Made by a program: the position numbers and the translations under genes
Assembly (NCBI RefSeq): GCF_003634935.1
Contig: NZ_RBXO01000001.1
Span: forward strand, 5,233,501 to 5,297,500
DNA from: Saccharothrix australiensis
GTDB lineage: Bacteria > Actinomycetota > Actinomycetes > Mycobacteriales > Pseudonocardiaceae
Direction: 5' to 3'
Length of the DNA stretch: 64,000 bases
Part shown: in pieces, positions 4,231-57,405 of the stretch
Layout of the letters: every line of letters starts with the position of its first letter
Numbering within the stretch: position 1 is the first letter of the stretch
The notes under the pieces: model-generated
What the model was told of the DNA's origin: nothing
The model's input: the letters and a program-made list of their open reading frames with translations, nothing else
Database searches by the model: none

Positions 4231-4361
4231 GAGGCCGCCGTCGGGTTGTCGCGCCTCATTTTCCGTCGATCACGCTTTTCGATCGACGGGAAATCAGGCG
4301 CGACGGCCCGACCACAGGGCGGCCGAGCCGCCGCGACGAAGTCGCGGCCAATCCAACACAG
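4231..4361 (+). repeat. Structured two-hairpin repeat, copy A
   Basis: One of four copies of a ~125-131 bp element (others at 57023-57405). Main hairpin: left arm 4240-4271, loop ACGCTTTTC 4272-4280, right arm 4281-4312, 32 nt per arm, paired throughout except a C-C mismatch and three T-G wobbles with T on the left arm. An outer clamp GGCCGCC (4233-4239) pairs with GGCGGCC (4318-4324). A second hairpin GCCGCGAC-GAA-GTCGCGGC spans 4330-4348. The 3' end CCAATCCAACACAG nearly matches that of copy D. The element overlaps the 3' end of the MFS gene on the other strand and supplies its stop codon. Confidence 0.9.
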
Positions 4362-5476
4362 CACGCCCCCAGCCACATCACCGCGGTGAGCCCGAGCCCG
4401 TCGACCACCAGGCCGCCCCCGAACGCGCCCAGCGCGATCGCCCCGTTGAACACCCCCGAGAACAGCGCGGAGGCCGGCTCGTGGGCGTGCGGCGCGGCGT
4501 TGAGCAGCCAGGTCTGCGTGCTCACCGAGACCGCGCCGTAGGCCAGTCCCCACACCACCAGCAGCACCGACGCGACCGGTACCGACGTGCCCACCAGCGG
4601 CACCAGCGCCATCGCCGCCGCGAGCACGCCGCTGACCACCAGGAGCGTCGCCCGGGGTGAGCGGGCCGCACCCGCGCCGCCGGCGAAGTTGCCCACGACA
4701 CCCGCCACCCCGTAGGCGAGCAGCAGCGCCGCGATGGTGCCCGGCGTGGCGCCGGACACCTCCTCCAGCACCGGCCGCACGTAGGTGTAGGCGGCGAAGT
4801 GCCCGACGACCAGCAGGACCACCACGACGAGCCCGGCCCGCACCGGCGGGTGGCCCACCAGCCGGAACGTGTCGCCCAGCCGCAGCCGCCCGCCCGCGGG
4901 CAGCCGGGGCAGCGCGAACACCAGCGCGACCAGCACGGCCAGCGCCAACCCGCCCGCGAGCGCGAACGACGCCCGCCACCCCACGACCTCACCGAGGTGG
5001 GTGCCCGTCGGCACGCCCAGCACGGACGCCACGGCGACACCGCTGAACACCAGCGACGTCGCCGGCCCCACCGCGCCCGGCGGCGCGAGGCGCGCGGCCA
5101 GTCCCCCGGCGAGGGACCACACCCCGCCCACGCCCAGCCCGACCAGCACCCGCGCGACCACCAGCACGGCGAACGAGGGCGACCACGCCGCCAGCGCGTT
5201 GCCCAGCGCGAGGACCGCCATCAGCGCGGCCAGCACCGCCCGCCGGTCGGTCGCGCCGAACAGCGGCACCAGCAGCGGCGCCGACACCGCCGCGACGAGA
5301 CCGGTCACCGTGAGGCTCAGCCCGGCGGCGCCCTCCGTCACGTCCAGGGCTCCGGCGATGGGGGTCAACAGGCCCACGGGCAGCATCTCGGAGGTGACCA
5401 CGGTGAAGGTCGCCAACGCCAGCGCCGCCAGGGCGGACCACGCGCGCACGCCGTGCCGTTCGTCGATCTTGTGCAT
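4256..5476 (-). CDS. MFS exporter (DHA1-like), C-terminus formed by repeat copy A
   Basis: Twelve-segment major-facilitator protein of 406 residues, most like arabinose-efflux/chloramphenicol-type H+ antiporters. It begins MHKIDERHGVRAW; early motifs are TSEMLPVGLLTPIA and the loop after segment 2, LFGATDRRAVLAAL. The segment-4 motif ARVLVGLGVGGVW matches motif B. ATG 5476 is chosen as the first Met next to a normal MFS N-terminus; no strong ribosome site is seen. The last ~35 codons (4256-4361) lie inside the structured repeat, giving a basic tail, LGRPVVGPSRLISRRS, and the stop. This tail is unlike MFS proteins and is probably a late acquisition. Divergent from a LysR gene that likely controls it; substrate unknown. 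Confidence 0.88.
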   Translation of the reverse strand: MHKIDERHGVRAWSALAALALATFTVVTSEMLPVGLLTPIAGALDVTEGAAGLSLTVTGLVAAVSAPLLVPLFGATDRRAVLAALMAVLALGNALAAWSPSFAVLVVARVLVGLGVGGVWSLAGGLAARLAPPGAVGPATSLVFSGVAVASVLGVPTGTHLGEVVGWRASFALAGGLALAVLVALVFALPRLPAGGRLRLGDTFRLVGHPPVRAGLVVVVLLVVGHFAAYTYVRPVLEEVSGATPGTIAALLLAYGVAGVVGNFAGGAGAARSPRATLLVVSGVLAAAMALVPLVGTSVPVASVLLVVWGLAYGAVSVSTQTWLLNAAPHAHEPASALFSGVFNGAIALGAFGGGLVVDGLGLTAVMWLGACCVGLAATSSRRLGRPVVGPSRLISRRSKSVIDGK

Positions 5477-5524
5477 GTGGTCCACACAACCGGCGGGCGG
5501 GAGCGGGAACAACGGCCGATCACT

Positions 5525-5542
5525 CACGCTTGCATGAGCGTG
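5525..5542. promoter_or_regulatory. Inverted repeat, probable LysR operator
   Basis: CACGCT and AGCGTG flank the six bases TGCATG in the 94-bp gap between the divergent MFS and LysR starts. A short dyad in such a gap is where LysR-type regulators normally bind. The dyad is seen; the assignment is inferred from position. Confidence 0.5.
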
Positions 5543-5570
5543 ACTACTCGATCGCACCGGGAGGGCGGAC

Positions 5571-6491
5571 GTGAGCGGTCTGGAGCTGCGGGAGCTGGAG
5601 GCGTTCCTCGCGCTCGCCGAGGAGCTGCACTTCGGGCGGGCGGGTCGGCGGCTGTACGTGTCGCAGAGCCGCGTCAGCCAACTGCTGCGGTCGCTGGAGC
5701 ACCGCGTCGGCGCGCCGCTGGTCGAGCGGACCAGCCGCCGCGTCCGGCTGACCCCGCTCGGTGAGCGCTTCCTCGCCGACCTCGGACCCGCCTACGCGGC
5801 GCTGCACCGGGCGGTGGACGAGGTCCGCGCGGCGGCGCGCGGTGTCGGCGGGTCGCTGCGGGTCGGGTTCCAGGGCGCGGTCGACGGCCACCTCGCGGAC
5901 GCGCTCACGCTGTTCGGCGACCGGCACCCGGACTGCGCCGTCGACCTGGTGGAGATCCCGCTGTCCGACCCGTTCGGCGCGCTGCGCAGGCGGGAGGTGG
6001 ACACGGCGGTCGTGCTGCTGCCGGTGCGGGAGCCGGACCTGGTGGTGGGCCCGGTGTTCTCGCGGCACGACCACACCCTGGCGGTGGCGGCCCGACACCC
6101 GTTCGCCGCGCGGGAGTCGGTGAACGCCGAGGAGCTCGCCGAGTGCAGGGTCATCGGCATCCACCAGGACGCGCCCCGGTACTGGCGCGCCGTGCACGCG
6201 CCGACCCGCACGCCCGCCGGCCGTCCGGTGCCGGCCGGACCCGCCGTGCACACCCTCCAGGAGGGCCTGAGCCTCGTCGCGGCGGACCGGGGCGCGATGC
6301 TGCTGTGCCGGGCGACGGCCGCGCACCACCGGCACCGCAGCTCGGTGGCGTTCGTGCCGGTCACCGGCCTGCCGGTGTCGGAACTCGGCCTCGTCCGCCA
6401 CCGCGACGACACCCGGCCCCCGGTCCGGGCCTTCGCGCGGGCCGTGGTGGAGACGCTGCCCGAGGAGACCGACAACGCGCTGACCGGGTGA
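5571..6491 (+). CDS. LysR-family transcriptional regulator
   Basis: 306-residue regulator. The N-terminal winged helix (residues 1-60: LRELEAFLALAEELHFGRAG, then LYVSQSRVSQLLRSLE) is a textbook LysR DNA-binding domain, with SQSRVSQ as the recognition helix. VRVGF-type periplasmic-binding effector domain follows from about residue 88 (GSLRVGFQGAVDGHL). GTG 5571 has a purine-rich site (GGGAGGGCGG) upstream. Divergent from the MFS gene across a short gap with a dyad, so it probably controls that exporter and itself. The effector is unknown. Confidence 0.93.
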   Translation: MSGLELRELEAFLALAEELHFGRAGRRLYVSQSRVSQLLRSLEHRVGAPLVERTSRRVRLTPLGERFLADLGPAYAALHRAVDEVRAAARGVGGSLRVGFQGAVDGHLADALTLFGDRHPDCAVDLVEIPLSDPFGALRRREVDTAVVLLPVREPDLVVGPVFSRHDHTLAVAARHPFAARESVNAEELAECRVIGIHQDAPRYWRAVHAPTRTPAGRPVPAGPAVHTLQEGLSLVAADRGAMLLCRATAAHHRHRSSVAFVPVTGLPVSELGLVRHRDDTRPPVRAFARAVVETLPEETDNALTG

Positions 6492-6603
6492 CCCCGCGGG
6501 CACTCGCGGCTCGCCTTACCAGGTGGCCGCGATGCTGGTGCAGAACGACGATGAACCGAATGTGGAGCCGATGATCACCCAGTAACACGCCTGGTCGAGA
6601 AGT

Positions 6604-6693
6604 GTCCTCCCCGCGCGAGCGGGGGTGGTCCGTGCGCCGCCGCCTCACGGCCTGCGGCGTTGATGTCCTCCCCGCGCGAGCGGGGGTGGTCCG
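6604..6693. CRISPR. Minimal type I-E-like CRISPR: two repeats, one spacer, no cas genes
   Basis: Two identical 29-bp repeats, 6604-6632 and 6665-6693, start GTCCTCCCCGCGCGAGCG and end GGGGGTGGTCCG. They are separated by one 32-nt spacer (6633-6664), giving the 61-bp period of type I-E arrays. The repeat holds the short dyad CCCCGC/GCGGGG expected of Cas6e hairpins and resembles actinobacterial I-E repeats. No third repeat, no AT-rich leader and no cas gene is visible in the window. It sits between the convergent LysR and NB-ARC genes. Strand of transcription cannot be decided. Confidence 0.8.
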
Positions 6694-6712
6694 GACCTTC
6701 GACAGGCCGCCG

Positions 6713-8773
6713 TCACCGCCCGCCGCAGTGCTCGCGCCAGTGCTCGAACCGCGCGAACAGCTCCCGCGCCGTCGCCCGGAGCCCCACGAGCCCCTGAGGC
6801 AGCCGGTGGTGGACGTCGGTGTGCTGTTCGAGGTCGTCGAGCATCGCGAGCAGCCGGGTGAACTCCGCCCGCACCGCCGCGGTGTCCGGTTCCGCCGCCT
6901 GGTGGGCCTCCCGCCACAGCCGCGTGACGAGCGTGAGCTGCGCGGTGACCCCGCTGACGTCGTGGTGACCCAACGCCGCGCGCTCGGCCCGGATGACGTC
7001 GCGGTGCCGGTCGAGGGTCGACGGGTCGCGCTCCAGGCACGAGTCGATCCAGCTCAGGTCGAACCGGCACGCCAGCGTCAGCGGGTGGGAAGGGCCGAGG
7101 TGGGCGGCGCAGTCGTCGGCCAGCGCCGCGATCCCCGCGCGGCGGCGCGCCGTGTCCTCCGGCGTCGCGGTGGTCCAGCCCAGCCAGGCCAGGTCGCGCC
7201 GCACGGTCAGCACGTCCGGGTGGTGCTCGTCCAGGTGCCTCCTGCGCACGTCGAGCACCCGGCCGAACAGGGTGCGGGCGCGGGCGTGCGCGCCGGTCAG
7301 GTGCGCGAGCAGCGCCACGGCCCGCGTGAGCCTGGTGGCGAACAGCTCCCACCGGGGCGGCAGGCCGCCGTGGCGGGTGACGTGGTCGACGACGTGCTCG
7401 CAGTGCGGCGCCAGCGCGGCCCAGCGGGACAGGTGGTCGGGATCGGTGGTGGACAGGTGGGTGGTGGTGCCGTCCAGGACGGCGGTGCACAGCGCGAGGT
7501 AGGGGTGCGGCGCGGCGAGCAGGTCGGGCTGGTGGCGGTTGGCCTCCCGGATCAACGGGTGCAGCAGCAAGCAGCGGGTGGTCGCGGTGGAGGCGCGGGG
7601 GTCGTGGAAGGTGACCTCGTCCACCAGGCCGAAGTCGGTGAGGGCGGTGAGGGTGCGGGCGACGTCGATGCCGGTGATGCCCTGGAACAGCGGCGAGTGG
7701 GCGAGGATGTCGGCGTCGACGACCGTGTACGGCAGCGGGGCCTGCGCGAAGCACGCCAGCCAGCGCAGCAGCGGGCGCGCCCTGGGCAGGCCGAGGTCGG
7801 CGAGCAGGTCCAGGCTCAGCTCCCACGTGCGGGTCAGCAGCGCGCGGTCGGCCAGCCCGCCGCCCAGGAGGTGCAGCCGGTCGACGCGGGGGAACTGCTC
7901 GCGCAGCACGCGCCGGTAGTGCTCGAAGTCGACGGGGAGGTCCAGCCCCGGCACGGGCGGGAGGTCCGCCGCGGCCCGCAGGTAGCGCCCGGCCAGGTGC
8001 AGGGCCAGCGGCAGCCCGCCCAGGGTGCGGGCCAGGCCCAGCGCCTGCTCGCGCGTGCCCGCGCGCGGCGCGAGGGCGAGCAGCAGGTCCGCGGCGTGCC
8101 CGGCGGCGAGCGGGCCGACCGGGTGCAGCCGGGTGTCCGGCGGCCAGGTGTCGGTGTTGCCGTCGCGGCTGGTGATGACGACGGCCCCGGTGCGCTGGCG
8201 CAGGGCGGGCAGCCAGGGGCGGTGGGTGCGCGTGTCGTCGGCGTTGTCGATGACGACCAGCCACGGCCCGGTCGCGGCGGCCAGCGCGTCGGCGAGGACG
8301 CCGATCGGGGACCGGGTGCCGGTCCACGCGGCGACGACGTGGTCGACCGGCGCGCCGGCGTTGAGCGCGACCTCGCGGAAGCCGGCCGACAGGGACGGGT
8401 CGGTGGACGCGTCGATCCACCACACCCTGGTCCGGGGGTGCCGCCGGAGCACGTGGTCGGCCAGGGCGAGGGCCACGGCGGTCTTGCCGCTGCCGCCCGC
8501 GCCGTGCAGGACGACAGTGGCGCCGTCCTGGCGCAGGGTGAGGTCGGCGAGGGCGTCGAGGAGCCGGTCGCGGCCGTGCAGGTCGATGGTGAGCCGGTCG
8601 ATCGGCGGCACCACCGACACCAGCCCGGTGACGACCGCGGGCTGGTGTCCACTGTGGATGGAGACGGCCCCGTGGACCGAGCCGACCTGGATCACGACCG
8701 CGTGGTGGTCGCCCGTGACGCGGTTGTGCACGTCTCCGGGTGTTGTCGGCCCTGCTGGCGGTGTGCGCACCAT
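6713..8773 (-). CDS. NB-ARC STAND ATPase with N-terminal RHIM-like motif
   Basis: 686-residue NLR-like protein. The N-terminal 45 residues have no folded domain but contain VVIQVGSVHGAV (about 26-37), a match to the h-Q-h-G core of RHIM/PP-type amyloid signalling motifs known at the N-termini of bacterial NLRs. NB-ARC follows: GRDRLLDAL, Walker A GAGGSGKT (91-98), Walker B WLVVIDNADD (171-180), TSR (201-203) and GLPLA (253-257). The C-terminal ~300 residues are helical and resemble degenerate TPR repeats. ATG 8773 is preceded by GGAAGG. No adjacent effector with a matching motif was found. Last gene of a three-gene operon; role in death or defence signalling is inferred from family precedent. 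Confidence 0.88.
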   Translation of the reverse strand: MVRTPPAGPTTPGDVHNRVTGDHHAVVIQVGSVHGAVSIHSGHQPAVVTGLVSVVPPIDRLTIDLHGRDRLLDALADLTLRQDGATVVLHGAGGSGKTAVALALADHVLRRHPRTRVWWIDASTDPSLSAGFREVALNAGAPVDHVVAAWTGTRSPIGVLADALAAATGPWLVVIDNADDTRTHRPWLPALRQRTGAVVITSRDGNTDTWPPDTRLHPVGPLAAGHAADLLLALAPRAGTREQALGLARTLGGLPLALHLAGRYLRAAADLPPVPGLDLPVDFEHYRRVLREQFPRVDRLHLLGGGLADRALLTRTWELSLDLLADLGLPRARPLLRWLACFAQAPLPYTVVDADILAHSPLFQGITGIDVARTLTALTDFGLVDEVTFHDPRASTATTRCLLLHPLIREANRHQPDLLAAPHPYLALCTAVLDGTTTHLSTTDPDHLSRWAALAPHCEHVVDHVTRHGGLPPRWELFATRLTRAVALLAHLTGAHARARTLFGRVLDVRRRHLDEHHPDVLTVRRDLAWLGWTTATPEDTARRRAGIAALADDCAAHLGPSHPLTLACRFDLSWIDSCLERDPSTLDRHRDVIRAERAALGHHDVSGVTAQLTLVTRLWREAHQAAEPDTAAVRAEFTRLLAMLDDLEQHTDVHHRLPQGLVGLRATARELFARFEHWREHCGGR

Positions 8774-8790
8774 GTGCGGCCTTCCGGGGG

Positions 8791-8850
8791 TGTGCGGGCA
8801 GGGGGGCGAGCGGGCAGGGGGCGTGCGGGCAGGGGGCGTGCGGGCAGGGG
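8791..8850. repeat. 15-bp G-rich tandem repeat upstream of the NB-ARC gene
   Basis: About four copies of a 15-16 bp unit (GCGTGCGGGCAGGGG and variants) lie between the GGDEF-EAL stop and the NB-ARC start. On the minus strand they would read as Pro/Arg/Thr-rich triplets if translation began upstream, but the ATG with a ribosome site at 8773 lies after them. Copy number is likely to vary. Confidence 0.7.
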
Positions 8851-8927
8851 GTGAAGCGGGCGGGACGCGGCGGGAGCGCCACCGCGACGCCGTCGCGCCG
8901 CGGTGGCCGTCCATCCACAGAGGACCG

Positions 8928-11438
8928 TCAAACGGCGATGACGCCGCCCAGGAGGTCCTGGATCTTCTGCGGCGCAAGGGGTCCGCCGAAGAACAACCCC
9001 TGCCCCAACTTCGCGGACAGCCGGCGCGCGTTGTCGCGCTGCGCCGCGGTGGTGATGCCCTTGACGGTGACCTCGTGGGTCAGCTCGTTGCCGATCCGGA
9101 TGAGGTTCGCGGCCACCGCCTGCCGGCACTGCTCCTGGGACGAACCGTCCAGCGAGGCGGTCAGCTGCGGCGGGATCACCACCGTCTGGAGGGTGAGCTT
9201 GGGCAGCGTGTCGTAGCGGGAGAACTCGGTGCCCAGGCCGTCCAGCGCGAGGGGCACGCTCAGCCCGCCCAGGTCCAGGAGGTGGCTGCGCGGGTCACCG
9301 TGCTCGTCGACCACGGCGGACTCGGGCATCGACAGCATCAGCTGGGACGCGGGCAGCACGGCCTCCTCCAGCGCGGCGCGGACGTGGACGACCAGGTCGC
9401 CGTTCCGGGCGAACCGGCGCGGGACGTTGACGGTGACGCGCGGCGCGGCCTTGCCCAGCGCCTTGCGCCACCGGGCCGCCTGCCGGACCACCGTGCGCAG
9501 CATCCACGGCACCCACGGCAGGGTCAGGCCGATCTCGTCGGCCAGCGCCACCAGGTCGTCGGCCGGCCGGACCCGGCCGTCCGGGTGGTGCCACTGCGCC
9601 GACGCCTCCGCGCCCACCACGACGCCGTCGCGCAGGCGCACGATGGGCGTGTAGGCGATGGTGATCTCGCCGTCCTCCAGCGCGCGGGGCAGCGCGGCGA
9701 GCAGGCGCACGCGGTCCTCGTCCGGGTCGCCGTGCGCCCGGCGCGGGAGCACCGCCTGCCACGGGGTGCCGCGGTCGCCGCCGACGTGCAGCGAGAACCC
9801 GGCTCGCGCCAGCAGTTCGACCGCGTCGGTGTCGCCGCGCGCCTCCGCGACGCCCACCGCCGGTGCCAGGGCCAGCTCCTGGCCGTCGATGCACATCGGC
9901 TCCGACAGCCAGTCCACCAAGCGCCGCAGCGTCCCGGTGACGCCGTGCCAGCTGTGCGGGTCGGTGAGCAGGACGCCGAAGGTGTCGCGGTCGAGCCGCC
10001 CCACGGTGGTGGCGGGCATTTCGGCGACCGCGGCGACGACGCGGGCGGCCAGCGTGGTGACCACCTTGTTGCGCACGCCCGGTCCCAGGGCGCGGGTGAT
10101 GGTGTTGAGGTCGCGGAACCGCAGGGCGCACAGCCCGATCGTGGTGCCGGGCCGCGCGTCGTCCAGGTGGGACTGCACGCGGTGCAGGAAGTTCCGCTGG
10201 TCGGGCAGCATGGTCACCTCGTCGTGGTCGTTGCCCGGCAGCAGCGCCCGCTGCCACGCGCGCAGGACCGTGGTGTCGTGCAGCAGCACGAGGAACCGGC
10301 CGGCGGGGCCGTCGGCGCGCCACTCCACCGCCGCGGACACCCTGGCGACGGGCGCGCCGGCGGCGCCCACGAGGGCGAGTTCGACGCCCGCGGCGGGTTC
10401 CTCGCCGGTGCTCGCCTCCGCCAGCGCGGCGGCCAGCGCCGCGCGATCGCCCTCCGCCACGACGTGGTCGCCGAGGTGGGTGCCCACGAGCGCGTCGGCG
10501 GGTCTGCCCAGCAGCGCGCACAGGGCCGGGTTGGCGTGGGTCACCGTGCCGTCCGCCGCCAGCGCGCACCCCGGCTGCGGCGACCGGTCGAGCACCGCCT
10601 CGTCCAGCCGCGCGCCCGGCGGCGGCAGCGGCGGTCGGCGCGCCGCCGCCCACGCCGCGCTGGTGATCCGCAGCTGCTCGTCCAGGACCCGGTCCCGCGC
10701 GCCGTCGGCGAAGCCGCCGGCCAGGGCCGCGATCACCTTCGACCGCCTGCCCGCGGTCGCGCCGCGCCTGGTCTCCAGCCACGGGATGATCAGCTCCAGG
10801 ACGTCCTGGAAGGACTGCGGCGTCAACCGCAGCCGCAGCGCCAGCTCCCGCCCGATCCGCTGGGCGGGCCACTCGCCGGGCCCGCGGCCGGACACCTCGC
10901 GCGCCAAGGCGTCCGCGAACCGCGTGAGTTCGTCTTCCAGCTCGTCGCTGGTCATCGCCAGGTAGCTGTTGGCGGACATGGTGCGCGCCCACTCGGCCAC
11001 GGTGTCCGCGAAGCCGACGGTGTCCGCGATGCCAGTGGTGGTGTCCACCAGGCCAACGCCGTTCACGGTGCCGATGGCGTCCACGGTGCCAACGCTGTGC
11101 TCCACGGTGCCCACGCTGTGCACGGTGTCGGCGGTGTCGATGGTGCCGGCGGTTCCGGCGGTGTCGATGGCGTCGGCGGCCTCCACCGCGTCCACCGCCC
11201 GGACGACCTCGCCGCCGGGCGGTGGCGTCGCGCCTGCCTCGTCGTCGCCGGGCACGCCGGCCGGCGCATGGGCGGCGTCCCCGCCGGCGAAGATCCACGC
11301 CAGCACCGCGTCCTGCTCCGCGACGCTGGTCCGGGCCGGCCGCGCCGCCGCCAGCAGCGCCAGCTTCTCCGCCGCGGCGCGCCGGCGCGCGAACGCCGCC
11401 GTGCCGGGTACCCACTGCACGATCCGCTGCCACATCAC
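8928..11438 (-). CDS. Degenerate PAS-GGDEF-EAL protein
   Basis: 836 residues, cytosolic. Residues ~1-85 are basic/helical; ~85-145 form a low-complexity run of VGTV-type repeats; ~285-390 resemble a PAS domain; a GGDEF-like domain follows, then an EAL-like domain to the C-terminus. Both catalytic sites look lost: GGDEF is replaced by GRLDRDTF, EAL by EAS (GAEASAQW), the DDFG motif by DGLG, the LKI motif by VVIPP, and the late EGVET by KGITT. It is therefore more likely a c-di-GMP receptor or protein-interaction module than a cyclase or phosphodiesterase. Start GTG 11438 overlaps the sigma-factor stop by 4 bp; 154 bp separate it from the NB-ARC gene. Confidence 0.85.
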   Translation of the reverse strand: MMWQRIVQWVPGTAAFARRRAAAEKLALLAAARPARTSVAEQDAVLAWIFAGGDAAHAPAGVPGDDEAGATPPPGGEVVRAVDAVEAADAIDTAGTAGTIDTADTVHSVGTVEHSVGTVDAIGTVNGVGLVDTTTGIADTVGFADTVAEWARTMSANSYLAMTSDELEDELTRFADALAREVSGRGPGEWPAQRIGRELALRLRLTPQSFQDVLELIIPWLETRRGATAGRRSKVIAALAGGFADGARDRVLDEQLRITSAAWAAARRPPLPPPGARLDEAVLDRSPQPGCALAADGTVTHANPALCALLGRPADALVGTHLGDHVVAEGDRAALAAALAEASTGEEPAAGVELALVGAAGAPVARVSAAVEWRADGPAGRFLVLLHDTTVLRAWQRALLPGNDHDEVTMLPDQRNFLHRVQSHLDDARPGTTIGLCALRFRDLNTITRALGPGVRNKVVTTLAARVVAAVAEMPATTVGRLDRDTFGVLLTDPHSWHGVTGTLRRLVDWLSEPMCIDGQELALAPAVGVAEARGDTDAVELLARAGFSLHVGGDRGTPWQAVLPRRAHGDPDEDRVRLLAALPRALEDGEITIAYTPIVRLRDGVVVGAEASAQWHHPDGRVRPADDLVALADEIGLTLPWVPWMLRTVVRQAARWRKALGKAAPRVTVNVPRRFARNGDLVVHVRAALEEAVLPASQLMLSMPESAVVDEHGDPRSHLLDLGGLSVPLALDGLGTEFSRYDTLPKLTLQTVVIPPQLTASLDGSSQEQCRQAVAANLIRIGNELTHEVTVKGITTAAQRDNARRLSAKLGQGLFFGGPLAPQKIQDLLGGVIAV
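11040..11180. repeat. Imperfect 18-21 bp in-frame repeat in the GGDEF-EAL gene
   Basis: Several imperfect copies of a unit like CCACGGTGCCAACGCTGTG encode short peptides VHSVGTV, EHSVGTV, DAIGTV and NGVGLV in series. The segment links the N-terminus to the PAS-like domain. It is in frame, so copy-number change would lengthen the linker without breaking the protein. Confidence 0.7.
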
Positions 11439-13330: not shown

Positions 13331-13369
13331 GGCGTCGGCGGGCGGACGGGTAAGGCGGCACGGGCCGGG

Positions 13370-13486: not shown

Positions 13487-13579
13487 CGGCCGGGCGGTCG
13501 CAGACGAGCGGGCACGGCCGAGCGCACGCGGCCGGACGGGTGCCACCGATGCCCGCGCGGACCGCGCCGCCGGCCCGGC

Positions 13580-48176: not shown

Positions 48177-48223
48177 GGGCGGACAGTATGCTCGCCGACG
48201 AGTTCCCCGGTGAAAGGCTCGCC

Positions 48224-48649: not shown

Positions 48650-48679
48650 CCGCGCGGGCGCGCACCCCACCGGGTGCGG

Positions 48680-49824: not shown

Positions 49825-50038
49825 CCACCCGACGCGCTCCGGACCACCCACCCGTCCCGATCGGACGCGACCGACACGCGGCCGGCACCCCGATCCCGCA
49901 CGGGACGGCGGACCCGTCGGGGCACCGGCGGTCCACCCGTCCGAACGGGACGTCCGATCATCACAGGACCGCTCGGGAACTCCTCGGCCCCACCACGCGA
50001 CTACCCGAGCGTGAGTGTCACCTACTTGGGGGTGTGAC

Positions 50039-50824: not shown

Positions 50825-50828
50825 GACC

Positions 50829-50907
50829 GGCCCCCGGTGACGCCGGGCCCTCGGCCCACCGTCACCGGGGCCGCGTGCCCCGCGCTCCCGTCGAGCGCGG
50901 GGCACGC
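50829..50907. terminator. Two adjacent hairpins between convergent genes
   Basis: Hairpin 1: GGCCCCCGGTGACG (50829-50842) with CGTCACCGGGGCC (50860-50872), one bulge. Hairpin 2: GCGTGCCCCGCGCTC (50873-50887) pairs perfectly over 15 bp with GAGCGCGGGGCACGC (50893-50907), loop CCGTC. Together they separate the DJ-1 and DUF3995 genes. Confidence 0.8.
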
Positions 50908-50913
50908 CCCGGT

Positions 50914-51348
50914 TCAGGCCCACGCCGCGAGCGAGCCCGCGGCCGCCGCCAGGGCCAGGCACAGCGGCGAGTAGACCCGCAGGTCGAGGCGCGCGAACTC
51001 GGTGCCCTTCCCCGGCGACGAGACCAGCCCGCGCACGCCGCGCAGCAGCAGGACCGCGGCGAGCCCGGCCGTCCCGACCACCGGCAGCCAAGCGGGCCCC
51101 GGCACCGGCAGCAGGCCGGCGCGACCCAGGACCAGGTACGCGGCCACCCCGAGCAGCACCACCACCACGGCCGTCAACGCGGGCGGGGGCAGCCGGTCGC
51201 CCTCCACCCCCACCACGCGCCGCGCGAACTCCTCGCGCGAGCGCAGCGGCCACGGCGAGAACATCCACACCACGTGCAACGCTCCGACGGCCGCCAACAC
51301 CAGGGCCGTGAGCAGGGCCAACACCGTCACCAGGGCCACCTCCCCCAT
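50914..51348 (-). CDS. DUF3995 four-segment membrane protein
   Basis: 144 residues with four hydrophobic segments. LHVVWMFSPWPL after the first helix and LRVYSPLCLALAAAAG at the end are typical of DUF3995 proteins. Function unknown; the family is small and membrane-bound. ATG 51348 is preferred over the in-frame ATG further upstream, because the operator palindrome (51360-51383) would otherwise lie within the gene. Confidence 0.82.
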   Translation of the reverse strand: MGEVALVTVLALLTALVLAAVGALHVVWMFSPWPLRSREEFARRVVGVEGDRLPPPALTAVVVVLLGVAAYLVLGRAGLLPVPGPAWLPVVGTAGLAAVLLLRGVRGLVSSPGKGTEFARLDLRVYSPLCLALAAAAGSLAAWA

Positions 51349-51359
51349 GTCCGTACGGC

Positions 51360-51383
51360 ACCGTACGGAGCTGTCCGTACGGT
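51360..51383. promoter_or_regulatory. 24-bp palindromic operator before the DUF3995 gene
   Basis: ACCGTACGGA and TCCGTACGGT are perfect 10-bp inverted arms around GCTG; a third CCGTACGG lies at 51351-51358. Each CCGTACGG is itself a palindrome. This size suits a TetR-type dimer pair, but no TetR gene is near; the adjacent MarR gene or a distant regulator could bind. Confidence 0.65.
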
Positions 51384-51402
51384 AGCGCACGGAACCTGAG
51401 GG

Positions 51403-51864
51403 TCACCCGGTGGCGGCGATCCGGGCCAGCACCCGCGCGAACACGCGCCCGAGCACGTCGACCTCCTCGTCGGTCAGCGCGTCGAACAGGTACCGCCGCA
51501 CCGCCTCGACGTGCGCGGGCGCGGCCGACTCGATCGCCGCCCGGCCCGCCGGTGTCAGCCGCACCATCGAGCCGCGCGCGTCCTCGGGGCACTCCTCGCG
51601 CACCACCAGCCCGCGCTTCTCCATGCGCGCGACCTGGTGGGACAGCCGACTGCGCTCCCAGCCGACCAGCGCGCCCAGCTCGCGCGCCCGCACCAGCCCG
51701 TCCGGCGCCTCGGACAGCGGCGCCAGCAGCGCGTAGTCGGCGTTGGACAGGCCCGCCTCGCGGACCAGGCCGCGCTCCAGGACCGCCGGCAGCTCGCGGT
51801 TCAGGTCGAGGTACGCGCGCCACACGCGCGCCTCCCGGTCGTCCAGCCATCGCGGTTCGCCCAC
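51403..51864 (-). CDS. MarR-family regulator of the LLM gene
   Basis: About 153 residues. MarR winged helix: GLSNADYALLAPLSEAPDGLVRARELGALVGWERSRLSHQVARMEKRGLVVREECPEDARGSMVRLTPAG. A longer N-terminus from ATG 51900 is possible but would place one of the two operator copies inside the coding region; GTG 51864 is therefore preferred, though its ribosome site is weak. Divergent from the LLM gene, with a repeated palindrome between them; likely represses both. Confidence 0.88.
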   Translation of the reverse strand: MGEPRWLDDREARVWRAYLDLNRELPAVLERGLVREAGLSNADYALLAPLSEAPDGLVRARELGALVGWERSRLSHQVARMEKRGLVVREECPEDARGSMVRLTPAGRAAIESAAPAHVEAVRRYLFDALTDEEVDVLGRVFARVLARIAATG

Positions 51865-51885
51865 CCGCGCCAGGCTAGCGGGTCG

Positions 51886-51921
51886 TTGACGCGTCATCAA
51901 TCTATTGTTGACGCGTCATCA
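51886..51921. promoter_or_regulatory. Double MarR operator, TGACGCGTCA x2
   Basis: TTGACGCGTCATCA occurs at 51886-51899 and 51908-51921. Each holds the perfect palindrome TGACGCGTCA, with a 22-bp period, about two helix turns. The right copy overlaps the -35 of the LLM promoter, so binding would block it. Confidence 0.8.
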
Positions 51922-51936
51922 TCCTGGGTCTACATT
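51908..51936 (+). promoter_or_regulatory. Sigma-70-type promoter of the LLM gene, apparently leaderless
   Basis: -35 TTGACG (51908-51913), 17-bp spacer, -10 TACATT (51931-51936). The expected start of transcription (~51943) falls on the GTG at 51943, so the message is probably leaderless; no ribosome site precedes that GTG. Confidence 0.7.
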
Positions 51937-51942
51937 GCCGTC

Positions 51943-52992
51943 GTGCGCACCGACAAGATGGAACTCGGCCTGCTGAGCTTCGCCGACCGCCACCCCGACC
52001 CGATCACCGGCGAGCAGGTCACGGTGGCCGACGCGCTGGCGAACCAGTTGGAGCGCATCAAGCTCGCCGACGAGCTGGGCCTGGGCTTCTACGGGCTGGG
52101 CGAGCACCACCTGGAGAACTACGCGATCTCCAACCCCGGCACGGTCCTCGCCGCCGCCGCGAGCATCACCAGCCGCATCACCCTCGGCAGCGCCGTCACC
52201 GTGCTCAGCACCGAGGACCCGGTCCGCGTCTACCAGCAGTTCACGACGCTCGACCAGCTCAGCCGCGGCCGGGCGGAGCTGCTCGCGGGGCGCGGGTCGT
52301 TCACCGAGTCGTTCCCGCTGTTCGGCGCGGCGCTGGAGGACTACGACGAGCTGTTCGAGGAGAAGCTCGCCCTGCTGCTCAAGCTGGACCGCGAGCAGCC
52401 GATCACGTGGTCGGGCCGGTTCCGCCCGCCGCTGGAGGACGCGCACGTCTACCCGCGCCCGTACGGGGAGCGGCTGCGCATCTCGATCGGCACGGGCGGC
52501 AACCCGGAGTCGTCGGTGCGGGCGGGCCTGCTCGGGCTGCCGATCGTGTACGCCGTCATCGGCGGCATGCCGGAGCGGTTCGGGCCGCTGGTCGACCTGT
52601 ACCGGCAGGCGGGCGAGGCGGGCGGGCACGCGCCGGCCGACCTGCACGTGACCATGAGCGCGATCGGCCTGATCGCCCGCAACTCGCAGGACGCCAAGGA
52701 CGCTTACCACCCGTACTGGCTGGAGACCATGAAGTACGGGTCACGGGCGCGCGGCTGGCCGGTGCCGTCGCGCGCCGAGTACGACGAGTGGACGCGGGGC
52801 GCGCGGTCGATCTTCGCGGGGAGCCCGCAGGAGGTCGCCGAGCGCCTGATCGCGGTAGGCCGCCTGACCGGCGCGAACCGGTACGCGATGCACATGGACT
52901 GGTCCGGCGTGCCGCACCGGCTGGTGATGGAGGCCATCGAGCTGCTGGGCACCGAGGTCATGCCCTTGGTGCACAAGGAACTGGCGGCCTGA
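51943..52992 (+). CDS. LLM-class flavin-dependent monooxygenase-like protein
   Basis: 349 residues. LELGLLSFADR-type first strand, ADELGLGFYGLGEHH, ITLGSAVTVLSTEDPVRVYQQFTTLDQLSRGRAELLAGRGSF, and RLRISIGTGGNPESSVRAG are luciferase-like TIM-barrel hallmarks (LLM class, F420- or FMN-linked). Start GTG 51943 (leaderless) or ATG 51958. Controlled by the divergent MarR repressor, so it is probably induced by a small toxic or aromatic compound. Exact substrate unknown. Confidence 0.9.
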   Translation: MRTDKMELGLLSFADRHPDPITGEQVTVADALANQLERIKLADELGLGFYGLGEHHLENYAISNPGTVLAAAASITSRITLGSAVTVLSTEDPVRVYQQFTTLDQLSRGRAELLAGRGSFTESFPLFGAALEDYDELFEEKLALLLKLDREQPITWSGRFRPPLEDAHVYPRPYGERLRISIGTGGNPESSVRAGLLGLPIVYAVIGGMPERFGPLVDLYRQAGEAGGHAPADLHVTMSAIGLIARNSQDAKDAYHPYWLETMKYGSRARGWPVPSRAEYDEWTRGARSIFAGSPQEVAERLIAVGRLTGANRYAMHMDWSGVPHRLVMEAIELLGTEVMPLVHKELAA

Positions 52993-53073
52993 CCACCCCA
53001 CCACCGCCGGCCGCCGACGCCACCCACCCGCCAGGGGCCGGGGCTGGACCGAACGCCCCAGCCACCCGACGCC

Positions 53074-53919
53074 TCAGCTGCCGAACGCCCGGACGACCGC
53101 CGCCATGTCGTCCGTCCCACCGTGGTCCGCCGCCACGCGGTACTGCTCGTGCAGGGCGCGCATCAGCCGATCGTCGGTGCCCGCCTCGCGCATCGCCGCC
53201 AGGATCAGGTCGGCGTCCTTCACCGCGCCCTCGACGCCGAACGACGGCGTGAAGTCCTCCGCGATCATCGCCCGCCCCTTCACCTGGGCGTAGCCGCTGT
53301 CCACCGCGCCACCGGAGATGGCGTCCAGGAACGCCGCGGGCTCCAACCCCAGACCTCGCGTCAGGGCGACGGCCTGCGCCGTGGCGGCGGTGATCGACAG
53401 CACCCACGAGTTGGCCGCCAGCTTGAGCCGCTGGCCGTCGCCGGGCCGCTCCCCCGCCCACACCGTCCGCGCGCCGATCGCGTCGAACACCGGCGCGACG
53501 CGGTCGCGCACGTCGCGCGGACCGGCGGCCAGCACGGTCAGCTTGCCCTCCTCGGCGGGCTTGCGGGTGCCGAGGACGGGCGCGTCGACGAACGGTGTCC
53601 CACCGGCCAACTCGACCAGGCGTTCGGTGCCCTCCAGCCCGACCGTGCCGCTCTGGACCCACACCGCGCCGTCGGCGAGCGCCAGGCCGCGCATCACCTC
53701 GGCGGTCGAGTCGGCGTCGAACAGCACGGTCAGCACGACGTCCGCGCCCGCCACCGCCTCCGCCGGGCTGCCTGCCACCGTCGCGCCGTCGCCGGCCAGC
53801 GGGCGGGCCTTCTCCGCGCTGCGGTTCCACACCGTCACGGCCAGCCCCGCGCGCAGCAGGCTCCGCGCCATGCCCGCGCCCATCATCCCGGTGCCCAACA
53901 CCGCAACCGACTTCGCCAC
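53074..53919 (-). CDS. NAD(P)-dependent beta-hydroxyacid dehydrogenase-like protein
   Basis: 281 residues. Rossmann motif VAVLGTGMMGAGMARSLLRAG, then VTVWNRSAEKARPL, ADVVLTVLFDADSTAEVM, FVDAPVLGTRKPAEEGKLTVLAAG and NSWVLS helix of the 6-PGDH/HIBADH fold. The catalytic Lys region GQRLKLAANSW is present. Similar proteins reduce imines (IRED) or oxidise beta-hydroxyacids; sequence alone does not decide. GTG 53919 follows GGAGGAAGGGAAA. Confidence 0.9.
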   Translation of the reverse strand: MAKSVAVLGTGMMGAGMARSLLRAGLAVTVWNRSAEKARPLAGDGATVAGSPAEAVAGADVVLTVLFDADSTAEVMRGLALADGAVWVQSGTVGLEGTERLVELAGGTPFVDAPVLGTRKPAEEGKLTVLAAGPRDVRDRVAPVFDAIGARTVWAGERPGDGQRLKLAANSWVLSITAATAQAVALTRGLGLEPAAFLDAISGGAVDSGYAQVKGRAMIAEDFTPSFGVEGAVKDADLILAAMREAGTDDRLMRALHEQYRVAADHGGTDDMAAVVRAFGS

Positions 53920-54109
53920 TGTGGGTTTCCCTTCCTCCCGACGCCTTCCGACGTCCTTCGCCGAACCGCAAATCTGCCACCGCGGCACCGGCGCCGCATC
54001 TTTCGTCTTCACTGGGACGGAGCAATTCCGCTTGCGCCCGAGCGGATCGCCGCCGTTGCCCCGGCCGCCGGCCCTACGGTGGTCCGGACGCACGCGTTCG
54101 GGGGGCGGT

Positions 54110-55288
54110 ATGGACGGCAGCACGGGCTCACCCCGCACCCCGCCACGGCCGCGCGGCATCGCGCTGGTCCTCGGCGGCCGGTTGATCTCGTTGCTGGGAC
54201 TGGGTTCCGCGCCGGTCCTGCTCTGGCAGGCCGGGGCGGGCCGGCCCGGCCTCGCCCTGATCCCGCTGCTGGTCGGCGGCGGCGCGGTCGTCCTCTGCGG
54301 CGAGCGGCTGCGGGCGCACGGGCGGCGACGCCTGGTGCGCGACGTGCCACCACCCGGACCGGGCGAGCTGTTCGTCCTGTACGTCAGAGCCTGGCGGCCC
54401 GCGCTCCGCGCCGAGGCCGCGCCACCCCGCCCGCTCCCCGCCGCGCGCACGGCCGAGGAGCACCTGTTCGACGCCCTCCGCGACCTGGGCCGCGTGGTCG
54501 CGGTCGGCCCGGCGGACGAGGAGCCGCCGCCCGCCGGCGCGCACCGGCTCGTGCTGCCGCACGACGACCGGCGGCGCGCGGTGCTCGACCTGATGGCGCG
54601 GGCGCGGCTGGTCGTGATCAGCGCGGACACCGACGCCGGCACCCGGTGGGAGTTCGCGGACGCGCTGCGGGTCGTGCCACCGGAACGGCTGCTGCTCGTG
54701 ATCACCCCCCGGCGCGGGGCGGCGCACCGGACCGGCACGGGATGCCGCGCCGTCGCCGCGCCGCGGACCGATGTGGACGGTGCGCTGCGGGCCAGGGCCG
54801 CCGAGCTGCACCAGGAGACCGGCCGCGCGTGGCGCCCGCCACCGCTCCCCGCGCACCCGACGCCGCCCGGCGGGGTGCTCGGGGTCGTCTCCTTCAGGGC
54901 CGGCTGGGAGCCGACGTGCCACGTGCCCGCGTCCCCGGGGCTCCGCCGCGCCGCCGCGCTCCGCCGCGCCCTCGCACCGGCCTACGGGCGGCTGACCGCG
55001 TACGAGGACGGGCTGACCGCCGACCCGGTGGTGGCGCGGCGGAGGCGGCGCGGCGAGCTGATCCGCGTGCTGGGCCTCGGCCTGGTGCTGTTCGCCGTGG
55101 TCCGGCTGGCCGTCGCGGCGTGGCGGCTGATGCGCCGCGACTGGGACCTCGGCCCCGGCGGGTGCTCGCTGTACGTGGTCGTGGCGACGCTGGTCGTGCT
55201 GCTGTGCGGGTGGGGCTCGGCGCGCCTCGGGCGGCGGATAGCCCTGCGGGCCGCGGCCCCGCCGAAGACGACACCCGCCCCGGTCTGA
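54110..55288 (+). CDS. Membrane protein with a TIR-like Rossmann domain
   Basis: 392 residues. Two N-terminal hydrophobic segments (IALVLGGRLISLLGLGSAPVLLW, LALIPLLVGGGAVVLCG), a ~260-residue cytosolic part, then two C-terminal ones. The cytosolic part starts GELFVLYVRAW and has EEHLFDALRDLGRVVAVGPAD, ARLVVISADTDAGTRWEFADAL and PPERLLLVITP, an order resembling the TIR/Rossmann-like domain of a broad actinobacterial family. It is a divergent copy. Function unknown; NAD-related activity is conjecture. ATG 54110. Confidence 0.7.
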   Translation: MDGSTGSPRTPPRPRGIALVLGGRLISLLGLGSAPVLLWQAGAGRPGLALIPLLVGGGAVVLCGERLRAHGRRRLVRDVPPPGPGELFVLYVRAWRPALRAEAAPPRPLPAARTAEEHLFDALRDLGRVVAVGPADEEPPPAGAHRLVLPHDDRRRAVLDLMARARLVVISADTDAGTRWEFADALRVVPPERLLLVITPRRGAAHRTGTGCRAVAAPRTDVDGALRARAAELHQETGRAWRPPPLPAHPTPPGGVLGVVSFRAGWEPTCHVPASPGLRRAAALRRALAPAYGRLTAYEDGLTADPVVARRRRRGELIRVLGLGLVLFAVVRLAVAAWRLMRRDWDLGPGGCSLYVVVATLVVLLCGWGSARLGRRIALRAAAPPKTTPAPV

Positions 55289-55414
55289 GTCGCACACCAC
55301 ACCGACCCGAGAACGGGCCGGCCCCGGGATCCGCCCGAGCGAGCCGGTCCCGGCGGCCCTCCGCGGCCCGACCCAGCGGGCCGGCCGCAGGAGGGCCTAG
55401 CAGCTCGCGGCGGG

Positions 55415-56056
55415 TCAGCGCGCGACGGTGAACCGACGGCGCTCGTGCGACGGCGTCTCGATCTCGTCCACCAGGGCGACCGCGTAGTCCTCGGCGCTGA
55501 TCCAGCTCACACCGTCGGCGTCGGTGACCAGGTCCTCCTCGCCGATCCGGTACTCGCCGGTGCGCTCGCCGGGCTCGATGGTCGCCGCCGGGCTGAGCGC
55601 GGTCCAGTTCACGTCCTCCACGCCGCGCAGGTAGTCCAGCGCGTCGCCGTGCGCGTGCATGATCTGGAGCAGCCAGTCGGGCAGGCCGGGCTTGTCCCAG
55701 ACCCGCGAGCCGTCGGCGGTGCGGAGGCTGCCCGCGCCGTTCACCACGATCAGCCGCGGCGAGCCGTCGACCGCGCGCAGCGCGCCGACCAGGGCCTTGG
55801 CCGCCGGCGCGATGGTGGCCTGGTGACCGGGGCCGTCACCGCCGCCGACCGCGCTGACCACCACGTCGTGCCCCGCGAGCAGGCCGGGCAGCGCGGCCTC
55901 GTCCAGCACGTCGCCCGCCTTGACGGTGACGTCGGTACGGTCGAGCTTGGCCGGGTCCCGGACGATGGCCGTGACGGTGTGGCCACGGCGCAGCGCCTCG
56001 TCGAGGATTCGCGAGCCGATGGTGCCGTTGGCACCGATGAGTGCGATGTGAGCCAT
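55415..56056 (-). CDS. NAD(P)-binding SDR-like protein (NmrA/YwnB type)
   Basis: 213 residues. HIALIGANGTIGSRILDEALRRGHTVTAIVRDPAKL is the Rossmann start with the GxxGxxG loop and basic NADP-type residue; VVVSAVGG, RLIVVNGAGSL and DVNWTALSPAATIEPGERTGEY follow, as in the YwnB/BVR-B atypical SDRs. ATG 56056. Divergent from an AraC regulator, probably its controller. Confidence 0.9.
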   Translation of the reverse strand: MAHIALIGANGTIGSRILDEALRRGHTVTAIVRDPAKLDRTDVTVKAGDVLDEAALPGLLAGHDVVVSAVGGGDGPGHQATIAPAAKALVGALRAVDGSPRLIVVNGAGSLRTADGSRVWDKPGLPDWLLQIMHAHGDALDYLRGVEDVNWTALSPAATIEPGERTGEYRIGEEDLVTDADGVSWISAEDYAVALVDEIETPSHERRRFTVAR

Positions 56057-56159
56057 GACTGAACGACTTCTCCAAAGTGGACAATGGGCGCGGTTCGCCG
56101 CCCGTGGTGCCATCCAAACCGAGGACCGTCGACCCGGCGAGGTCAGAGGGGGACACGTC

Positions 56160-57011
56160 ATGGTGAAAAAGCGACACATCCCGGATGTGTCGTACCACAA
56201 CCCGGCGGTCGCCGAACTCGGCGTCGAGGTGCTGTCGCTGGGCGTGCTGCGGCAGCGCGCCGGCGCCGGGCACGACCTGACGCGCCCGCAGCGGCCGGGG
56301 TTCCACCTCCTGATGCTGGTCACCTCCGGCACGGGAACGCACACGGTCGACTTCACGCCGTACCGGCTGCGGCCGGGCAGCGTGCTGTGGGTCCGGCCGG
56401 GTCAGGTGCAGCAGTTCCAGCCGCGGTCCCGCGTGGACGGTCCGCTGCTGCTCTTCCAGCCGGACTTCCCGCCGCCGGACGTCGCGAGCCCGTTCGGTCC
56501 AACGCACTGGCAGCTGGGCGCGCGGGACCAGCGGCTGGCCGCGACCGCCGCCGAGCACCTGGCGCGGGAGTACGCCGCGCTCACCCACGAGCCCGTCGCC
56601 GTGGCCGGCCGGCTGCTGGCACACCTGCTGGCGGCCCTCCTGCACCGACTCTCCTTGGCCGCGGGCGGGCAGTCACCCGCCTACAACGAGACCTTCCTGC
56701 GGTTCCGCGAGGCCGTGGAGCGGCACTTCACCACCACCCACCGGATCACCGACTACGCCCGCGCGCTCGGCTACTCCCCCCGCACCCTGGCCCGCGCCAC
56801 GCAGGACGCCGTGAGCATGAACCCCAAGGAATTCCTGGACCGCCGCATCATCCTGGAGGCGAGGCGCCTGCTGGCCCACACCGACCTGCCGGCCGCCACC
56901 ATCGGCACCCACCTGGGCTTCCCGGCCGCCACCACCTTCGCGAAGTACTTCCGCCACCGAACAGGCACCACCCCAGGCGACTTCCGAGCCACCACCCAGT
57001 CCCCCACCTGA
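56160..57011 (+). CDS. AraC-family transcriptional regulator
   Basis: 283 residues. N-terminal cupin sensing domain (HLLMLVTSGTGTHTVDFTPYRLRPGSVLWVRPGQVQQF), C-terminal AraC double HTH (ITDYARALGYSPRTLARATQDAVSMNPKEFLDRRIILEARRLLAHTDLPAATIGTHLGFPAATTFAKYFRHRTGTTPGDFR). ATG 56160 has AGAGGGGG at -8; the upstream ATG 56055 lacks one. It probably regulates the divergent SDR. Confidence 0.92.
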   Translation: MVKKRHIPDVSYHNPAVAELGVEVLSLGVLRQRAGAGHDLTRPQRPGFHLLMLVTSGTGTHTVDFTPYRLRPGSVLWVRPGQVQQFQPRSRVDGPLLLFQPDFPPPDVASPFGPTHWQLGARDQRLAATAAEHLAREYAALTHEPVAVAGRLLAHLLAALLHRLSLAAGGQSPAYNETFLRFREAVERHFTTTHRITDYARALGYSPRTLARATQDAVSMNPKEFLDRRIILEARRLLAHTDLPAATIGTHLGFPAATTFAKYFRHRTGTTPGDFRATTQSPT

Positions 57012-57022
57012 CCCCCGCCCCC

Positions 57023-57147
57023 GCGAGGCCGCGTCGGCCTGTCGCGGCTCATTCGCCGCCGATCACGCTTCACGATCGGCGGCGAATCAGCCGCGACGGC
57101 CCGACCACCAAGCGGCCGAGCCGCCGCCTGCGAAGCAGCGGCCACAA
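57023..57147 (+). repeat. Structured two-hairpin repeat, copy B
   Basis: First of three tandem copies. Main hairpin: left arm 57033-57064, loop ACGCTTCAC 57065-57073, right arm 57074-57105. Outer clamp GGCCGC/GCGGCC. Second hairpin CCGCCTGC-GAA-GCAGCGG (one bulged C). Nearly identical to copy C. Confidence 0.9.
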
Positions 57148-57272
57148 GCACGGCCGCGTCGGCCTGTCGCGGCTCATTCGCCGCCGATCACGCTTCACGA
57201 TCGGCGGCGAATCAGCCGCGACGGGCCGACCACCAAGCGGCCGAGCCGCCGCCTGCGGAGCAGCGGCCACAA
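57148..57272 (+). repeat. Structured two-hairpin repeat, copy C
   Basis: Exactly 125 bp after copy B. Left arm 57158-57189, loop ACGCTTCAC, right arm 57199-57230. Apart from the shared C-C mismatch and one T-G pair the 32-bp arms match fully. Second hairpin loop is GGA instead of GAA. It differs from copy B at only a few positions, so a recent duplication is likely. Confidence 0.9.
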
Positions 57273-57405
57273 GCACGGCCGCGTCGGGGTGTCGCGCCTC
57301 ATTTCCTGTCGATCACGCTTTTCGATCGACAGGAAATCAGGCGCGACGGCCCGACCACAGGGCGGCCGAGCCCGCCGTCTGCGGAGCAGCGGCAATCAAA
57401 CACAG
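57273..57405 (+). repeat. Structured two-hairpin repeat, copy D
   Basis: Exactly 125 bp after copy C. Left arm 57283-57314, loop ACGCTTTTC, right arm 57324-57355. Arm sequence is close to copy A (53 kb away), unlike the neighbouring B and C, and the 3' tail CAATCAAACACAG matches copy A rather than B and C. Second hairpin with GGA loop. About 50 bp upstream of the amine-oxidase start. Confidence 0.9.

Follow-up and report, generated by a model that had tools for sequence, protein, structure and literature searches.

What is the hairpin-forming sequence that occurs four times in a 64,000-nt window of the Saccharothrix australiensis genome (7.86 Mb; the host genome below, labelled G000), and how did it come to be there? 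An earlier note on this window had reported four look-alike copies (A to D), all on the + strand, and had named a repetitive extragenic palindromic (REP) or miniature inverted-repeat transposable element (MITE) family and a structured RNA as the main options. All four copies are indeed where that note had placed them, with one correction: in window coordinates, which are used for copies A to D, copy A starts at 4229 and not at 4231, because the 5' end GCGAGG is invariant. As to the two options, a REP/MITE-like family is favored by at least 134 copies in the host, by occurrence in seven genera and by a pairing that is kept as the letters change, while the structured RNA is the less favored of the two. 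We consider it slightly better than an even bet (a probability of about 0.55) that the element is a non-autonomous REP/MITE-like mobile repeat, the folded + strand of which is recognized by a trans-acting enzyme at the 3' terminus CACA/G (the slash marks the proposed cut). The element family is real and, as far as searched, undescribed, and it belongs to a known broad kind of sequence, the short palindromic repeats.

The element is about 131 bp long and has three helices, P1, P2 and P3, followed by an unpaired 12-nt 3' tail. The 32/9/32 hairpin (P2) and the small 3' hairpin (P3) fold as the earlier note had described, but two features had been overlooked: the outer helix P1, in which GCGAGGCCGC pairs with GCGGCCTCGC over ten pairs, and the fixed 3' tail AATCCAACACAG. 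Two of the ten P1 pairs are open in about 40 of 51 host copies, and all of them are paired in the folds from other genera. A one-sided bulge of 6 nt separates the last P2 strand from P1. The P3 loop is C-GGA-G in 29 and C-GAA-G in 22 of the 51 aligned host copies, and this conserved C-GNA-G loop is presumably of the type known for very stable DNA mini-hairpins. Single-copy folds (n = 4: A, D and two genomic copies outside the window) lie 9.5–11.5 standard deviations below those of dinucleotide shuffles, with no shuffle being equally stable.

The pairing is maintained through considerable sequence change. Between copies B and D there are exactly five compensatory arm pairs (alignment columns 34/78, 41/71, 42/70, 44/68 and 46/66), in agreement with the claim of at least five, and the reported covariation of the second hairpin, P3, is borne out by double changes in A versus B and in A versus D. 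The C.C mismatch said to be kept in all four copies is present in each (in A, B and D by alignment, in C by reading) and recurs in 42 of the 51 aligned genome copies, the remaining nine carrying G-C or C-G there. In the alignment of these 51 host copies (A1), double changes occur at 23 of 50 pairs, with 127 double-change cells vs. 37.6 in shuffles, and 93.5% of the cells are paired, a figure that falls to 30–45% once the partner is slid by 1–3 columns. The corresponding values for 74 distinct copies from relatives (A4), an alignment fitted to the covariance model and hence biased toward structure, are 35 of 49 pairs and 383 cells vs. 86.5. Because G.T cells outnumber A.C cells (98 to 6 in A1, and 203 to 19 and 185 to 12 in two further counts), we take the + strand to be the folded one. 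The more specific statement that T is always the left-hand member of a G-T pair holds for A, B and D; in the family at large it does not, since column 28 has G on the left in 29 of 51 copies. In the same way, the notion that selection acts on the structure and not on the sequence fits the changes of P2 and its loop between genera, but not the Saccharothrix P2 loop, P3 and tail, which are largely conserved in sequence. Hairpin-templated repair can likewise produce double changes in DNA palindromes, so that such changes show that pairing has been retained, not that the product is an RNA. Two oddities of the fold may be mentioned here. In 24 of the 51 A1 copies, the P1 3' arm and the P3 5' arm spell a perfect hairpin of 6 bp, GGCGGC-CGA-GCCGCC, in competition with P1 and P3, and an alternative fold of the one arm with the other is thus possible. 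In the copy at L010 (4932–5058), the P2 apex and loop are inverted (CCAAAAGCGGG), resembling a flip through a cruciform.

The covariance-model search that had been proposed as a check does find many further copies, in the host as well as in relatives. The model (R1, built from 51 copies) recognizes at least 134 full-model places in the host genome, which with 8 mirror-strand matches and 2 fragments give 144 matches in all; after merging arrays, the 134 full copies correspond to 113 independent loci. A DNA search of the same genome gave at least 63 matching pieces, with 40 of 217 candidates scored. In the family that holds Saccharothrix, which is rich in antibiotic producers, the distribution is uneven: a first sample of whole genomes yielded matches in 22 of 25 Saccharothrix (the host included), 1 of 11 other genomes of the family and none of 24 other genomes of the order, and a wider sample of the family yielded matches in 63 of 297 genomes, belonging to 7 of the 46 genera sampled. 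Within Saccharothrix the number of matches ranges from none (G004, G012 and G014) to the host's 134 or more, the counts for relatives being lower bounds (54 candidates per genome were scored in the first sample, 10 in the family sample). In the collection of named genomes, a 19-nt loop pattern has 91 occurrences, of which 84 are in Saccharothrix and the remaining seven hold no copy; 74 of the 84 loci entered A4 and the counts, and the other ten, which also hold a copy, were left out. Nine loci read from other genera retain the same type of P1, bulge, P3 and tail but have a different P2 and P2 loop. Within the host, the copies are denser near dnaA (332 kb), with 53 of the 113 loci lying within 1 Mb, nearly twice the even share.

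With respect to known families, Rfam 15 at gathering score has a tRNA-Sec as its sole match in the whole window and nothing on the element. The Rfam families that copies B–D call up at E values of up to 10, all sub-threshold and mostly microRNA or other long-hairpin models, were discarded. Carriage by a phage or plasmid was rejected: copy D matches nothing in phages or plasmids, and viral contigs do not contain the one exact P3-plus-tail pattern looked for in them. No publication on the family was found among the matches listed, which cover few subscription journals, and a REP survey that includes three Actinomycetota genomes does not, in the portion of its text available, contain the word Saccharothrix (PMC12306157). 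There is, in addition, a second subfamily with a different P2 sequence, partly in tandem arrays of 128–129 bp and also present mid-chromosome (Table 1). Copies at ten loci (L019, L022, L024, L034, L035, L036, L037, L038, L083 and L088) have in common an extra 3' flank, CTCTA...CACCGCTCCCGC, and may represent either a longer element or insertions into another repeat.

The two ends of the element behave very differently. Over 74 copies from relatives (74 of 75 alignment rows, one identical row having been dropped) the 3' end is CACAG in 34, CACTG in 11, CACGG in 9, CACCG in 3 and something else in 17, and the terminal G is retained in 86 of 90 host copies. When 12 host sites were queried against relatives, six could be aligned, and at two of these (L080 and L085) the host copy has CTCAG in place of CACAG at its end, and the relative carries CTCAG at precisely that position; in the relative, this CTCAG is a stop codon read backwards. 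The final G of copy D likewise aligns with a G in relatives. On the other side, the left flank has much C and little G (0.50 and 0.24 over 60 nt), and at both window sites it is non-syntenic in the relatives compared. A low-complexity tract of this composition stands directly 5' of copy A, and similar C-rich, G-poor tracts, often tandemly repeated, are found 5' of many copies (e.g. L010, L016 and L030), regardless of the direction of the upstream gene. By reading, GCGAGG... at one end is not the inverse of ...AATCCAACACAG at the other, so there are no terminal inverted repeats. There is no clear target-site duplication either: in the host, flanking repeats of at least 4 nt occur in 14 of 108 copies, vs. 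about 17 expected from permuted pairs.

The genomic positions are equally characteristic. According to our codon-based gene caller, none of the 103 host copies in fetched loci (a subset of the 134) is inside a predicted gene: 44 are in convergent gaps, 30 in same-direction gaps with the genes, 17 in same-direction gaps against them and 12 in divergent gaps. Among 67 copies from relatives (of 75 alignment rows) the figures are 23, 19, 7 and 17, with one copy (L225) flagged as in-gene. In codirectional gaps of host and relatives together, the element is on the gene strand in 49 of 73 cases (p = 0.005), although for the host alone the preference is not significant (30 of 47, p = 0.08). The 3' end often docks on a stop codon. 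In relatives, it lies between -12 and +3 nt from the stop codon of an opposing gene in 20 of the 31 copies that face such a gene end, and in 15 of these 20 the distance is negative, placing the stop inside the element tail; in the host, 23 of 61 copies have their 3' end between -12 and +10 nt from an opposing stop. At copy A, the predicted opposing gene, of the major facilitator superfamily type, terminates inside the element, at 4256. The relatives G011 and G006 resemble the host around this copy only from 4364 onward, and, to judge from this comparison, copy A apparently took the place of the terminal part of the opposing gene.

Partial copies and tandem arrays point to a fixed 3' boundary. 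Copies B, C and D form one such array, in which B and C appear to be cut at the 3' side merely through variable tails. In 864 kb of contiguous sequence (the window and three blocks, two of them copy-rich) there are 47 matches, of which six partials reach the 3' end without having 5' sequence, five of these in arrays and one minus P2. Over all fetched host loci, 15 array units have no 5' part vs. a single copy with no 3' part (L094), and internal pieces are absent from all 145 host and 91 relatives' matches, although pieces shorter than about 38 nt would escape. These numbers were obtained from a raw tally of 19 host partials minus the 5' and 4 minus the 3' end (8 and 2 in relatives) by removing artefacts: one copy split by a block border (L323/L324), the variant tails of B and C, a copy clipped at a locus edge (L249) and an interrupted copy (L184). 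Of 18 partial host units, 15 are in arrays, two have the 5' end but have lost P2, and one stands alone without a 5' end; the idea that isolated partial copies are 5'-truncated proved wrong for five of them, which carry GCGAG and are minus P2 (L096 is ambiguous). An element-derived 11-mer directly follows 47 of 123 distinct 3' ends in the host and 11 of 79 in relatives.

Array units start at varied points, 12–131 nt from the 3' end, and extend to it, with a hotspot just beyond the P2 loop (model position 57–58 in 9 of 15 profile-found units). Scored by the majority of parent copies, 22 of 23 distinct host junctions show a match between the tail's terminal G and the base that precedes the start point (expected 0.352, p = 1.6e-9); our earlier best-parent scoring (24 of 25 in the host, 8 of 9 in relatives) was biased upward. 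Among 15 units with an upstream neighbor, the neighbor is the best match in five (one of them a tie) and another copy in ten. A unit of like kind, joined after CACTG, exists in another genus (L355).

How, then, might such an element move? That it does so is suggested by its scattered sites, by two empty sites and by its uneven copy numbers. In the reading that we prefer, the recognized form would be a folded single + strand, consisting of the P1/P2 arm, then the P3 mini-hairpin, then the 12-nt tail, and a nuclease or transposase acting in trans would make the 3' end, cutting and joining at CACA/G. Since the search for a reverse transcriptase in the host was negative, single-stranded DNA is a likelier moving form than RNA. 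New copies would enter intergenic DNA, usually just beyond the 3' end of a gene and beside a target G or CAG, without target-site duplication. The array units that start internally would have arisen later, through events that use the same 3' terminus as their anchor: insertions into a resident copy, with homology settling the 5' side, or slippage of a polymerase from that terminus. The element would probably have no dedicated function in the host and would persist where it does little harm, at times providing the stop codon of an opposing gene.

A number of results weigh against this mobile-repeat reading. To begin with, no mobilizing enzyme was found. The REP-associated tyrosine transposase (RAYT) that the earlier note had suggested looking for was not found: PF01797 (Y1) has no candidate in the host, and matches in 5 of the 25 genus genomes, in a search whose control was positive in 5 of 14 named genomes. 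With the host genome devoid of a candidate, Y1 was rejected as the mobilizer. PF04986 (Y2) is absent from all 25 genus genomes, but the control genomes are equally silent, so this is not evidence of absence. There is also no bias with respect to the replication fork (58 of the 113 host loci with it, 55 against, the origin being placed at dnaA and the terminus assumed to be opposite, which GC skew did not confirm), and none of the six aligned sites has a clean left boundary. The junction match is less marked among relatives (6 of 8, expected 0.333, p = 0.02), in which flanking repeats of at least 4 nt are found in 8 of 63 copies vs. about 4.6 expected, so that a small effect is possible there. 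Finally, the excess of G.T over A.C is concentrated, with 88 of the 98 G.T cells of A1 in three columns. The genes between close copy pairs at 12 loci include no candidate partner, as judged by eye from their first 60 residues with no family search. The tail resembles RYYYAAC, the motif of integron attC sites, but nothing was seen to pair with it and this candidate was dropped. PF00078 (RVT_1) has no candidate in the host and matches in 10 of the 25 genus genomes (control positive in 3 of 14); its presence has no visible relation to copy number, the copy-free G012 and G014 both having it, and a reverse transcriptase was rejected as the mobilizer.

The arrays themselves bring to mind retroelements. 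Eukaryotic short interspersed nuclear elements (SINEs) and the template jumping of R2 generate units anchored at the 3' end, as well as end-to-end junctions that show a short match. In a SINE-like origin, an RNA with CACAG at its end would be reverse-transcribed into the genome from a primer at a target CTG/C, and template jumps would leave array units minus their 5' part. It would account for the fixed 3' end, for units that begin internally and adjoin the 3' terminus through a short match, for the repeated short tails, for array units derived from different source copies, for the G.T pairing of the + strand and for the gene-strand preference in codirectional gaps. We nevertheless find it rather unlikely, given the RVT_1 results, the lack of a clear target-site duplication and the rarity of truncation in stand-alone copies, nearly all of which keep the 5' end (apart from the five partials with GCGAG, only four are without it, and one of these, L184, is interrupted). 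About as doubtful is a related scheme of 3'-end-anchored multiplication, in which a linear single strand (RNA, or DNA without Y1) ending in CACAG would join a target G or CAG and then be copied, the polymerase jumping from an internal G to the 3' end of another copy. If this were true, the element would have a SINE-like life style without a recognizable reverse transcriptase or RAYT, by way of a host polymerase or a novel enzyme. It is far less probable that replication slippage produced the array units as simple tandem duplications, unrelated to the mobility of the element. Although short junction matches and the local abundance of low-complexity C tracts in the intergenic DNA would suit slippage, the duplicated pieces finish at the element 3' end, ten of the 15 units match another copy better than their neighbor, and plain slippage would also yield internal duplications, none of which was seen.

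A different kind of explanation, and one that we regard as improbable, is that the element is a functional structured RNA (a stabilizer in 3' untranslated regions, a terminator or a small RNA) that is under selection at gene ends. The strong, covarying fold and the location beyond genes are what such an RNA would predict, but it would hardly be expected in at least 134 copies or in tandem arrays, with P2 and its loop differing between genera and the copy number varying from zero to the host's maximum within a single genus, nor does any Rfam model reach its gathering score on the element in the window. No better are the chances of a classical REP, moved by a RAYT-type Y1 transposase that the host has since lost. 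The element is palindromic, intergenic and of high copy number, several copies form close opposite-strand pairs, and some species do have Y1; yet Y1 is missing from the copy-richest genome, and the Y1-positive G018 and G023 hold at least three and at least two copies, while the element is at least three times the length of a REP and shows no fork-strand bias.

Returning to the preferred reading, a trans-mobilized repeat, it is instructive to compare the Saccharothrix element with better-known small repeats. A DDE-type MITE has terminal inverted repeats and a target-site duplication, neither of which is apparent here. MITEs derived from IS200/IS605 insertion sequences, and REPINs (REP doublets forming hairpins), work through a single strand that is folded into hairpins close to either end, and produce no target-site duplication, and IS200/IS605-like insertion tends toward a lagging-strand bias. 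The element shares with them the folded strand with hairpins and the lack of a clear duplication, but differs in that its host has no Y1 candidate and its copies no fork-strand bias. In the wide sense, it has the marks of a REP-like repeat: high copy number, intergenic location, palindromy and proximity to gene ends. As described in the available text of PMC3733652, GTAG and CGTC REPs are palindromes of 20–40 bp with a tag at one end, located between genes, downstream of coding regions and mostly in convergent or same-direction gaps; the CGTC REPs are without a known dedicated transposase, and untagged REP-like repeats are mentioned in M. tuberculosis, while the term Actinobacteria is absent from that text. 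Judged by this account, REPs resemble the element in being palindromic, intergenic and beyond gene ends, and the CGTC REPs also in their missing mobilizer, whereas the length of about 131 bp, the three helices and the fixed 3' tail CACNG of the element do not conform to the single-tag GTAG/CGTC format. ERIC (RU-1; 127 bp, with terminal inverted repeats, a TA terminus and a target-site duplication) and YPAL (RU-2; 168 bp, duplications of 3–26 bp), as portrayed in the portion of PMC2229807 at hand, are similar to the element in size, stem-loops, intergenic position and the lack of a proven mobilizer, but unlike it they have target-site duplications. The yeast mitochondrial GC clusters, in the excerpted text of PMC4478555, are small GC-rich palindromic mobile units that, like the element, merge with each other; they differ in being mitochondrial, in their short AG/ACT flanking repeats and in their length (42 nt in the case studied), and whether they move by a DNA or an RNA mechanism is described as unsettled. 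The mechanism of mobility is also left open for ERIC and YPAL (PMC2229807) and for the CGTC REPs (PMC3733652), in the text available for each. The Saccharothrix element adds a large family to those short palindromes of bacterial genomes for whose spread no enzyme is known, and its fixed 3' terminus, the one-base joins between its units and the docking of its 3' end on stop codons are testable clues to how such orphan repeats move. Its unexplained 3'-anchored behavior makes the family worth following, and the covariation model R1 allows it to be counted and mapped in other genomes.

Table 1. Positions of the element copies, their parts and neighboring features (window coordinates unless a contig is given).
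Feature	Position	Strand	Remarks
Copy A, full element	4229..4361	+	5' GCGAGG to 3' CACAG; between convergent genes
Copy A, outer helix P1, 5' arm	4229..4239	+	
Copy A, P2 (32-bp hairpin), left arm	4240..4271	+	
Copy A, P2 loop	4272..4280	+	9 nt, ACGCTTTTC
Copy A, P2, right arm	4281..4312	+	
Copy A, P1, 3' arm	4319..4327	+	preceded by 6-nt one-sided bulge
Copy A, small hairpin P3	4330..4348	+	C-GAA-G loop (loop 4338-4340)
Copy A, 3' tail	4349..4361	+	unpaired, CAATCCAACACAG, fixed end CACAG
Copy B	57023..57147	+	array unit 1; the only one of B, C and D with full 5' end GCGAGG
Copy C	57148..57272	+	array unit 2; 5' end clipped, joined to tail of B
Copy D	57273..57405	+	array unit 3; P2 subtype unlike B and C; 5' end clipped
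Intergenic gap with array B-C-D	57012..57454		AraC-type regulator gene ends 57011 (+); copper amine oxidase gene starts 57455 (+)
C-rich, G-poor tract	4060..4228		directly 5' of copy A
Second-subfamily arrays (among others)	G000:C1 1782873-1783267, 1237445-1237838, 7332601-7332995		
SelA gene	1..996	-	
tRNA-Sec	1013..1103	-	Rfam RF01852
AIRS-domain gene	1255..2295	+	

The window also contains a selenocysteine locus, in which the tRNA-Sec is accompanied by the SelA gene and by an AIRS-domain gene (Table 1); the latter, lying beside the tRNA-Sec, is probably selD.

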